Made by a program: the position numbers and the translations under genes
In this document: piece by piece, positions 22,870 to 25,979 of the stretch
How positions within the stretch are numbered: position 1 is the stretch's first letter
Layout: the number at the start of each line of letters is the position of its first letter
Source: Rhodospirillales bacterium RIFCSPLOWO2_02_FULL_58_16
Lineage (GTDB): Bacteria > Pseudomonadota > Alphaproteobacteria > Rhodospirillales > 2-02-FULL-58-16
Length of the DNA: 35,512 nucleotides
Direction of reading: 5' to 3'
Assembly: GCA_001830425.1 (NCBI GenBank)
Contig: MIAA01000012.1
Coordinates: 5,001 to 40,512 of the forward strand
The notes under the pieces: model-generated
The model's database searches: none
The model's input: only the letters and a program-made list of their open reading frames with translations
Told to the model about the DNA's origin: nothing

Positions 22870-25002
22870 TCACCGCAACGAAGCCGACGGAGATAGGGCC
22901 GCCTTGTCGAGGGCGGTCAGCACGGCGTCCTGCGTCAGCAGTTCCGGCAAGGGCAGGCCGTCCGCCGCCCCCGGCCCGTAAACGACGTTGAACGGAATGC
23001 CGTAACGCCCGAAGCCGGCCAGATACCTGGAGATATTTTCGTCGGGCAGCGTCCAGTCGGCCTTCATGAGCGTCACCGAATCGCCGGACAGACGAGCGAA
23101 GGCCTGCCCCTTGGCAAGAACGAATCTCTTGTTGACGATGCAGGTGATGCACCAGTCGGCGGTGACATCGACAAAGACCACCTTGCCGCCGGCGACCAAC
23201 CCGGCGATGGCCGCCTCGTCAAAGGGCGTCCACCGAAGTTCCGGTTCTCCATTGCCGCCGGCGACGGACGGCGGGGCGACTGAGAAAAGCACATTAGGCG
23301 TTACAAAGGCCGCCGCTGAAAGCGCGATCACAACCATGGCCGAAGCGCGCCCCAGGCGACGACCGGCGTAAAGAGCCGCCCCGACGAAGGTCATCATAAC
23401 CCCGATCACGACGGCGGCGACAATGCCGACCTGGGCGACAAGAACGGTGAGCAGCCATGCCGCCGTCGCCGCCATGGCCACGCCGAGGACGCGCCGCAGA
23501 CTATTCATCCACGGTCCCGGCCTGGGCAGCCGCGTCGCCAGTCCCGGCGCCGCCGCCATCGCCAGAAAGGGCAGCGCCAAACCGACGCCGAGCGCCGTGA
23601 AAACGGCAAAGATTTCGGCGGCGCCGCGAGTCATGGCGAAGCCGACGGCGGTTCCGAGGAACGGCGCCGAGCACGGCGTCGCCAGCAGGGTGGCGAAGAC
23701 GCCGGAGACGAAGGAGCCGCCGAGGCCGTGCGCATGGCTGGAATGTTCGCCGATATTGTAAATGCCGTTCGGCAGCCTGAACTCGAAAAAGCCCCACAGG
23801 TTACAGGCGAACAACGTCACCAGCAGGGTCAGGGCGATCAGAAACCACGGATGCTGGAACTGAATGCCCCAGCCGACGGAAGCCCCAGCCGCCTTTAACG
23901 CCGTCAGAACGCCGGCCATAACCAGAAATGAAAACAGGATGCCGGACGCCGAAGCGATGAAGTCGAGACGCACCTTGCGCCGCTCGCCGCCGCCGTGGCG
24001 AATGACGCCGAGCAGCTTGATCGACAGGACCGGCAACACGCAAGGCATGAGGTTGAGGATCAGGCCGCCGATCAGCGCCATAACCAGAATCAGCGGCAAC
24101 GACGGCTGACCTGCCTTCTCCGCCGCCGGGAGGGCGGCGCCGGGGAGCGCCGTAAGCGACCGCTCGGCGGAACGCGCCCCGTCAACGATGGTGATGGTCA
24201 GGTTTTTGCCGACAAGCCCGCCGTTTCGGTCTTTACCGCCGCTGACGGAAACCTCCAGCAGGGCGCTCCGCCCGCCGTCGCTCAAGCGCACCCTGGGCGC
24301 TGAAAACTGTAGTTCCTCAGGCCCTTCGATATACATGTCGGGTTTAACAAAGGGGATAATGCCGGATGCGCTGACTCTCAGCGCCGCATCCTTTCCTCCG
24401 CCCGACGCCTCGGCGCGCTCGATGGTCACGCCGTGGGCGGCGCCGTCGCCCGGCACACGCACGGCATAACGGTGGATGGAATAAACGAAGGCGCTCGGCA
24501 GCGGCGGTCCCGCCGGAAGGTCAAGGGTCAGTTCCGCCCGGACGGGAATGCAAATCTTGTTGCACGCCAGATAATCGACGGCGGCGGCGAAACTTACAGG
24601 CTCGCCGATGCGTGAAGGAATCGCGCTGATCGGCAGCACCACCTCGTCCTTGTAGCCCAGCGTCTCAAATCCCAGGATCGAGAACCGCTCGGGCGCCGGC
24701 CACGACAAAACGGCCTTTTCAAGATTTTGCGAACCCGCCCAATCAACGCGCGGCGGAAAGCCGGCGTCTCCCGGCGAACGCCAATAGACCTTCCAGCCCT
24801 CCTTGAGACGGAAATGCAGCCCCAGCGACACCGACTCCAGCCCGCCCGTCGCCTCGACGGCGGAAATCAGCCGAACGCCGGTAAAGTCGGAATCGGCCCA
24901 CTTCGAGGCCGCCGCTTCGGCAAGGGCGTGGCCGGGCATAAACGCCGCCAACAACGCCGCCGCCGACGCCCACTGCGTCTTTATTGATCCGAGATAAAAC
25001 AT
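22870..25002 (-). CDS. dsbD: DsbD/ScsB-type thiol-disulfide interchange protein
   Basis: Moves reducing power from the cytoplasm across the inner membrane to periplasmic thiol proteins. It has 710 residues and three parts. A signal peptide (1-30) is followed by a periplasmic DsbD-alpha-like domain with C147 and C151 (DYLACNKICIPVRAELTL). A polytopic membrane domain follows with the redox cysteines C321 (LILNLMPCVLPVLSIKLLG) and C444 (TLLATPCSAPFLG). A C-terminal thioredoxin-like domain carries C618 and C621 (VDVTADWCITCIVNKRF). All three cysteine pairs are present, so a full electron relay is expected. The family layout looks closer to ScsB than to E. coli DsbD, so the gene symbol is a guess. 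It is transcribed away from yqgE. Confidence 0.92.
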   Translation of the reverse strand: MFYLGSIKTQWASAAALLAAFMPGHALAEAAASKWADSDFTGVRLISAVEATGGLESVSLGLHFRLKEGWKVYWRSPGDAGFPPRVDWAGSQNLEKAVLSWPAPERFSILGFETLGYKDEVVLPISAIPSRIGEPVSFAAAVDYLACNKICIPVRAELTLDLPAGPPLPSAFVYSIHRYAVRVPGDGAAHGVTIERAEASGGGKDAALRVSASGIIPFVKPDMYIEGPEELQFSAPRVRLSDGGRSALLEVSVSGGKDRNGGLVGKNLTITIVDGARSAERSLTALPGAALPAAEKAGQPSLPLILVMALIGGLILNLMPCVLPVLSIKLLGVIRHGGGERRKVRLDFIASASGILFSFLVMAGVLTALKAAGASVGWGIQFQHPWFLIALTLLVTLFACNLWGFFEFRLPNGIYNIGEHSSHAHGLGGSFVSGVFATLLATPCSAPFLGTAVGFAMTRGAAEIFAVFTALGVGLALPFLAMAAAPGLATRLPRPGPWMNSLRRVLGVAMAATAAWLLTVLVAQVGIVAAVVIGVMMTFVGAALYAGRRLGRASAMVVIALSAAAFVTPNVLFSVAPPSVAGGNGEPELRWTPFDEAAIAGLVAGGKVVFVDVTADWCITCIVNKRFVLAKGQAFARLSGDSVTLMKADWTLPDENISRYLAGFGRYGIPFNVVYGPGAADGLPLPELLTQDAVLTALDKAALSPSASLR

Positions 25003-25029
25003 GCCAGCTTAAACTAGCCCTTTAAAAAG

Positions 25030-25053
25030 GCGGAAAAAAGGCGGAAAACCGCC
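25030..25053 (-). terminator. Possible intrinsic terminator in the dsbD leader
   Basis: Read on the minus strand, GGCGG-TTTT-CCGCC (25053-25040) is followed by TTTTTT (25039-25034) and then a second CCGCC plus TTTTT. The stem is only five base pairs, but all G-C, with a T-run directly after. It ends about 30 nt before the dsbD ATG, so it could attenuate transcription or end a short RNA from the palindrome upstream. Confidence 0.4.
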
Positions 25054-25107
25054 ATCCGCACGGCGAGCCGGATCGGTCCTGATTGAAACGGCGAACCGGG
25101 TTGTTTT

Positions 25108-25394
25108 TGCTGAGGGCCAAGACTCATTAAATTCATGAATTCTGCGCGAAGCAGAAAAGGCGGCCCGGCTATGAAAAGGCCGAAAAGCGTAGTATTTGCT
25201 ACGGTTGAGGCCTTTGAAGACGTCCGGTCGCCTTTTCCGCCGCGCCCGAGAAGGGTGACATCAGAATGACCGAATGGGTAGCGGAAAATCGGCTCGCCGG
25301 GGGCCTTCAGGCCCGCCTTCGCCGATTCTCCTTGCCCCTCGGTCATTTTGATGTCACAGAATTTCACGAATTTAATGAGTTTTGGCCCTGGGCA
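25108..25394. repeat. 287-nt nested palindromic element, three-way junction on paper
   Basis: Long imperfect inverted repeats (25108-25144 against 25357-25394) enclose two further long hairpins. The first spans 25144-25245, with arms GCGCGAAGCAGAAAAGGCGG and GTCCGGTCGCCTTTTCCGCC and a CGTAG/CTACG apex. The second spans 25255-25357, with 19 matched positions, GTGACATCAGAATGACCGA against TCGGTCATTTTGATGTCAC, and a C(TTCA)G apex. It fills most of the 407-nt dsbD-yqgE gap and has no convincing ORF. It may be a non-autonomous mobile element, a structured RNA or a leader element. Confidence 0.7.
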
Positions 25395-25409
25395 AGGCGT
25401 TAGGGTGAA

Positions 25410-25979
25410 ATGATGATTCAATTAGGAAAAACCCTTACCGGACAACTGCTCATCGCCATGCCGGGGATGATGGACCCTCGTTTTGCCGAAACGATAATCT
25501 GCGTATGCGCCCATGGCGCCGAGGGGGCCATGGGCCTTGTCATTAATCGGTCGCTGAACGCCATGACCTTTCCCGATCTTCTCGGGCAACTGGGCATCGA
25601 AGCCGTCGGCAGCTATGAGCAGATCATTATCCACTCCGGCGGCCCCGTGGAGTCCGGTCGCGGATTTGTTCTTCATTCTCCGGACTACAGCCGGGAAACA
25701 ACGCTTCATGTAAACGAAGAGGTGGCGCTGACCGCCACCGTGGATATCCTCAGGGATATCGCCGGGGGCGCCGGCCCGCGCCGCAGCCTTCTGGCGCTCG
25801 GCTATTCCGGCTGGGGGCCGGGACAACTGGAATCAGAAATCAAAGCCAACGGATGGCTTCACGTTGCGCCCGACGACGATCTTATTTTCGGCCCCGACCT
25901 GGACAACAAATGGCGCCGGGCCATGGCCAAGATCGGAATCGACCCCAGAATGTTGTCCGGGACCGCCGGCCACGCCTGA
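25410..25979 (+). CDS. AlgH/YqgE family protein
   Basis: 189 residues, the usual family size. It starts MMIQLGKTLTGQLLIAMPGM, then DPRFAETIICVCAHGAEGAM, GLVINRSLNAMTFPDLLGQL, IHSGGPVESGRGFVLHSPDY and ALGYSGWGPGQLESEIKANG, all strong family marks. The family is widespread but without an established biochemical role; the name AlgH comes from a Pseudomonas alginate regulator. The first ATG (25410) follows AGGGTGA and is preferred. The palindromic element ends 15 nt before this start and may form part of its leader. Confidence 0.93.
   Translation: MMIQLGKTLTGQLLIAMPGMMDPRFAETIICVCAHGAEGAMGLVINRSLNAMTFPDLLGQLGIEAVGSYEQIIIHSGGPVESGRGFVLHSPDYSRETTLHVNEEVALTATVDILRDIAGGAGPRRSLLALGYSGWGPGQLESEIKANGWLHVAPDDDLIFGPDLDNKWRRAMAKIGIDPRMLSGTAGHA

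Follow-up and report, generated by a model that had tools for sequence, protein, structure and literature searches.

RUP is a short non-coding intergenic repeat that targets TA and whose ends match those of IS630-Spn1 in the same genome, NEMIS/Correia and ERIC are repeats of MITE type with TA ends, the transcripts of which form long stem-loops and influence the mRNAs next to them, and the CIR repeats of the alphaproteobacteria Caulobacter and Brucella consist of two hairpin arms and a linker with TA termini (PMC2229807). Hairpin pairs are also known from the REP sequences, dimers of which lie within longer palindromes in Anabaena variabilis and Halothiobacillus neapolitanus; the CGTC REPs, which are chiefly alphaproteobacterial and are known from Bacteroidetes as well, have stems of 8–9 bp that start with AT, loops of 4–5 nt and CCA tails (PMC3733652).

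The palindrome analysed here lies in a 35,512-nt stretch of the genome of Rhodospirillales bacterium RIFCSPLOWO2_02_FULL_58_16 (the window, to which positions refer unless a contig or locus is named) and resembles NEMIS/Correia, ERIC and RUP in its size range, its TA ends and its folding. NEMIS/Correia and ERIC differ from it in that each forms one end-to-end stem-loop, lacks an inverted pair of inner domains and is lineage-restricted. The likeness to RUP and IS630-Spn1 extends to the mobiliser, in that here, too, an IS630 element has ends in common with related MITEs; however, RUP is 107 bp long, occurs only in pneumococcus and has no reported signature of structure or function beyond its ends (PMC2229807), whereas the present element contains a structured domain that crosses phyla, and no IS630 in the genome matches the ends of the window subfamily. 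CIR elements share the two-arm layout in alphaproteobacteria and the TA at the termini but, judged by their description, differ in a length of about 110 bp, the lack of an outer stem and a conserved GANTC at the terminal loop. REP dimers of the GTAG and CGTC groups are alike in being inverted hairpin pairs. A CGTC-like box (GACG when read from the opposite strand) occurs in the domain too, which is nevertheless set apart from the CGTC REPs by its AGG box, its G.G mismatch and its multi-loop stems with ~26 pairs; we rejected membership in that group because the AT-started single stem and the CCA tail are missing.

Borders, fold and copies of the element

In the gap between dsbD and yqgE, the window contains a near-perfect nested palindrome of 277 bp (Table 1), where the sequence-only reading had placed it and with borders that could now be refined. 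The predicted RNA fold of the plus strand has an MFE of −177 kcal/mol compared with a mean of −102 (sd 4.7) for shuffled sequences (z = −15.9), and the minus strand folded as DNA also departs from its shuffles (z = −10.7); judged by these z-scores, the palindrome is not a chance observation. The outer stem comprises 30 pairs. The outer arms of ~37 nt described before included it, together with five nucleotides per side (25108–25112 and 25390–25394) that belong to the flank, since the repeat common to the other copies stops at AGGGCC...GGCCCT. Both of the abutting hairpins were recovered as well, but the joint between them, previously seen as almost unpaired, contains a mini-hairpin, and similar CCC...GGG joints were also seen in relatives.

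Table 1 Features of the element and its flanks in the window.
Feature	Position	Strand	Basis
dsbD (DsbD_N, DsbD_TM and thioredoxin domains), flanking gene outside the element	22870..25002	-	
yqgE (AlgH-like, DUF179), flanking gene outside the element	25410..25979	+	
Whole element, MITE copy, ends AGGGCC...GGCCCT	25113..25389	+	alignment of eight same-genome copies
Outer stem, left arm (terminal inverted repeat)	25113..25143	+	fold; end motif recurs at both copy ends
Outer stem, right arm (terminal inverted repeat)	25358..25389	-	fold; end motif recurs at both copy ends
Hairpin 1	25144..25245	+	fold
Conserved structured domain (model R1), 70.3 bits	25158..25233	+	model match; covariation
Core string CGAAAAGCGTAGTATTTGCTACGGTTGAG, tip of hairpin 1	25181..25209	+	pattern search; fold
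Mini-hairpin CCC-GAGAA-GGG at the joint	about 25246..25256	.	sequence reading; predicted fold contains two of its pairs
Hairpin 2	25255..25357	-	fold; minus strand 25346-25266 is related to the domain in inverted, degenerate form (12.7 bits)

GANTC sites (CcrM-type methylation) were noticed at 25119–25125 in the window and in many left arms, including those of a second subfamily (b, see below); right arms of the window subfamily often appear to have lost it.

The sequence-only reading had reported no open reading frame. A 135-aa minus-strand frame (25014–25421) does span the element and is open in 7/7 uninterrupted copies, but it gave no Pfam match and no excess of variation at third codon positions (13/11/9), for which reasons we do not regard it as a gene; taken literally, the earlier statement is not correct. 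A protein-coding repeat comparable to the Rickettsia-type coding palindrome (RPE) was rejected, as the eight copies are intergenic and the open frame has neither a codon-position signal nor a family match.

A new MITE had been among the options first proposed, together with a search of the genome for other copies. Sequence searches found eight of them in the 2.73-Mb, 53-contig source genome, seven full-length and one interrupted by a run of N, plus fragments, and with their terminal inverted repeats and TA-type target they bear this option out. Where intact, the copies are 94–97% identical to the window copy, and the AGGGCC...GGCCCT ends are common to all, with one or two letters changed in a few. 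All eight are intergenic, and their neighbours are divergent, convergent and same-direction gene pairs, following no orientation rule. Outside the ends, most copies are preceded by YT and followed by AR, consistent with insertion at TA; TA is present on both sides in five of the eight copies and imperfect on one or both sides in the other three, including the window copy, and a palindromic TA duplication is indistinguishable from none without an empty site. The feature has generic properties of a MITE: it is short and non-coding, its terminal inverted repeats are long, and it occurs in several dispersed copies that end alike. The flanks are compatible with insertion at TA. We regard the window feature as one copy of such a non-autonomous transposable element with a probability of about 0.87.

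Copy numbers are probably underestimated, because assemblies break or carry N inside palindromes of this sort, which calls for caution wherever they occur. The run of N lies inside the copy at C16:163515-163816 of the source genome, and many loci are found at contig ends (e.g., L071, L096, L109 and L131).

Second subfamily and candidate transposase

A covariance model of the hairpin 1 tip (R1) led to the second subfamily in the same genome, subfamily b, which has ends like TAGAGCATTATCCGACCAAATTG and is represented by at least six full copies of 270 bp, plus deletion forms. Arm-only palindromes of this subfamily, from which both hairpins are gone, were seen at C40:5368-5413 (46 bp) and C16:312210-312266 (57 bp).

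The sole DDE_3 match found in the source genome belongs to an IS630-family element of 1050 bp (C10, about 1450–2850, L247), which lies at TA and has ends that match at 18 of 18 positions. It ends in TAGAGCACGTCAGG, of which the terminal eight letters, TAGAGCAC, are common to some subfamily b copies. The corresponding situation in a Bacteroidota genome (G881) involves an IS630 of ~1.2 kb and a domain-bearing element of ~160 bp, both of which end in TAGTGCTGCGTCAAG, with 15 identical terminal bases. Because this evidence of shared ends is the same in kind as that for RUP and IS630-Spn1, we interpret the element as a MITE of the IS630 type, which a transposase of the IS630 family would mobilise in trans. 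That such a transposase moves elements of this kind is well supported for the family, though not for the window subfamily's own ends, for which no transposase with the same ends was found in the source genome. IS1380 was rejected as a mobiliser, its transposase (PF13701) being present in 0/9 carrier genomes.

A conserved structured domain inside the elements

MITE interiors are usually regarded as disposable filler that differs between families. Unexpectedly, the interior is the conserved part here and the ends are the part that changes. An exact pattern for the hairpin tip was found in 77 stretches in GTDB species, with taxa that include Rhodospirillales, Kiloniellaceae, Pelagibius, Defluviicoccus and Saprospiraceae. 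One relative is present in Pelagibius marinus, a cultivable bacterium. Model R1 matched in 26 of 385 alphaproteobacterial and 6 of 296 Bacteroidota genomes and, at a stricter threshold, in 12 of 398 Pseudomonadota genomes, seven of which lie outside Alphaproteobacteria. Searches of phages, plasmids and IMG/VR yielded no occurrence. In the window and at eight loci with relatives, the elements gave no credible match in Rfam 15, the only hits on them being weak microRNA-model matches in the window, far below threshold. With R1, this structured domain, which is missing from Rfam 15, can be searched for. No description of the domain turned up in the sources read, nor through literature searches on its core string and on alphaproteobacterial IS630 MITEs, which did not reach most subscription literature, so an earlier description is possible.

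Most of the inspected domain carriers are inverted-repeat elements, the ends of which are unrelated from family to family. In the Saprospiraceae carriers, 22 of 26 copies have an exact 3-bp ANT target duplication, compared with a mean of 10 in shuffled data, where 0/5000 were as high. Given TA-type duplications in some elements and ANT duplications in others, along with the unrelated ends, the domain is associated with two kinds of ends or more. In 20 of the 28 sources searched, R1 matches both strands ~105 nt apart, forming a dyad in which the right half, together with its hairpin, is related to the left half in inverted orientation. Most alphaproteobacterial elements contain the domain twice, in inverted orientation, with a degenerate second copy in the window, and the inspected Bacteroidota elements have a single hairpin, with one possible exception, as do some of the deletion forms.

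For the analysis of covariation we used 95 distinct model-found sequences (E up to 0.001 accepted) in an alignment fitted to the model, in which related sequences are not independent. Compensatory changes were observed at 26/26 modelled pairs, and 799 cells were changed on both sides, compared with at most 189 in slid-partner controls. The highest conservation is seen, among others, at letters that are unpaired, namely A16 (99%), G17 (95%), G18 (93%), G30 (97%), A87 (97%), A99 (96%) and C103 (97%), although a pair between G17 and C103 is possible. Two non-canonical positions outside the modelled pairs flip jointly from A.G to C.A (58/30 and 50/29, with few mixed states), and the second of these switches is not imposed by the model, because it was fixed as A.G in the model-building sequences. 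Exchange between sheared-type pairs is expected of a three-dimensional motif. The option of a structured ncRNA thus gains support for the inner domain, through covariation and internal loops kept across phyla, but not on the grounds on which it was first proposed.

Role of the domain and alternative readings

We favour a role of the domain as RNA, with slightly less than even confidence. The internal hairpin domain would work as folded RNA once transcription of a neighbouring gene runs through the element, and action in such read-through transcripts is our best guess. Since the domain stands once on each strand in most alphaproteobacterial elements, a transcript of either direction would hold one copy. 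The RNA might bind a host protein or alter the fate of the transcript, which would make insertions tolerable. In a wider and more tentative reading, the hairpin may represent a hitherto undescribed kind of structured nucleic acid (most probably RNA) that has an evolutionary history of its own. It would be borne across Alphaproteobacteria, other Pseudomonadota and Bacteroidota by transposons whose ends are unrelated and would interact with a conserved host factor, the inverted pair that is usual in alphaproteobacteria giving one copy from either transcript direction.

Base-pair departures and insertion strands bear on the choice between RNA and DNA. Within genomes, the ratio of G.U to A.C departures, counted in columns and summed over families, is 24:16 for hairpin 1 and 25:23 for the arms, which is not significant, and the G-T pairs formerly taken as a hint of selection on RNA lose their weight. 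In the inner stems of the cross-genome alignment, G.U exceeds A.C (53:28 cells, not independent), most strongly in helix 3 (36:5), with a reversal in helix 5 (11:21). Insertions with a single hairpin initially appeared to prefer the sense strand (13 vs 4), but the count became 15 vs 12 with another gene call and more elements. The lack of a within-genome G.U bias and of a sense-strand preference of insertions argues against an RNA function.

Alternatively, the hairpins could act as DNA, extruded or single-stranded near the transposon ends and, while the element transposes, bound by a transposase or by a host factor, as has been proposed for REP hairpins and tyrosine transposases. The dyad, which places one hairpin beside each end in most alphaproteobacterial elements, would suit such a role, as would the strength of the structure as DNA and the absent G.U bias, but the Bacteroidota elements and some deletion forms make do with one hairpin, and the domain is missing from the examined IS630 elements, even from those with matching ends. 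Moreover, binding by a transposase poorly explains the conservation of the domain, because the same domain occurs in elements with unrelated ends and with either TA-type or ANT duplications. We therefore consider a DNA role rather unlikely.

Even less probable is that the interior is a functionless passenger, alike among elements through recent common ancestry and horizontal spread. It is true that MITE interiors are commonly unconstrained and that hairpin-less deletion forms persist in the source genome. However, stems and ends have diverged beyond recognition, yet the internal-loop letters are kept at 93–99% and the pairs are compensated, a pattern that drift from a recent ancestor would not yield.

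That the element arose as a leader or regulator of dsbD and yqgE, the sequence-only reading having also considered a shared leader, is suggested by its position where the promoters of these divergent genes lie, with yqgE starting 20 nt away, but is highly improbable, as the other seven copies adjoin other genes in every relative orientation and nine sampled genomes of the same family gave no full-element DNA match, one of them (G006) having relatives of the domain. A secondary effect of the MITE on the expression of yqgE or dsbD is possible, and the effect of a transposon-borne structure for or on its host becomes a testable question.

In the source genome, ends that stand alone, ~22 nt long and reading AGGGCCAAAACTCATTAAATTCA or a variant of it, are located at C39:53799, C32:89694, C15:17261, C30:12729 and C19:20009 (L046, L050, L054, L055 and L061); most of them stop near one same letter, and they are either deletion remnants or independent sites. 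At L090 (PL23a_bin.98, about 2083–2436), two related elements adjoin, and one seems to have inserted within or next to the other.
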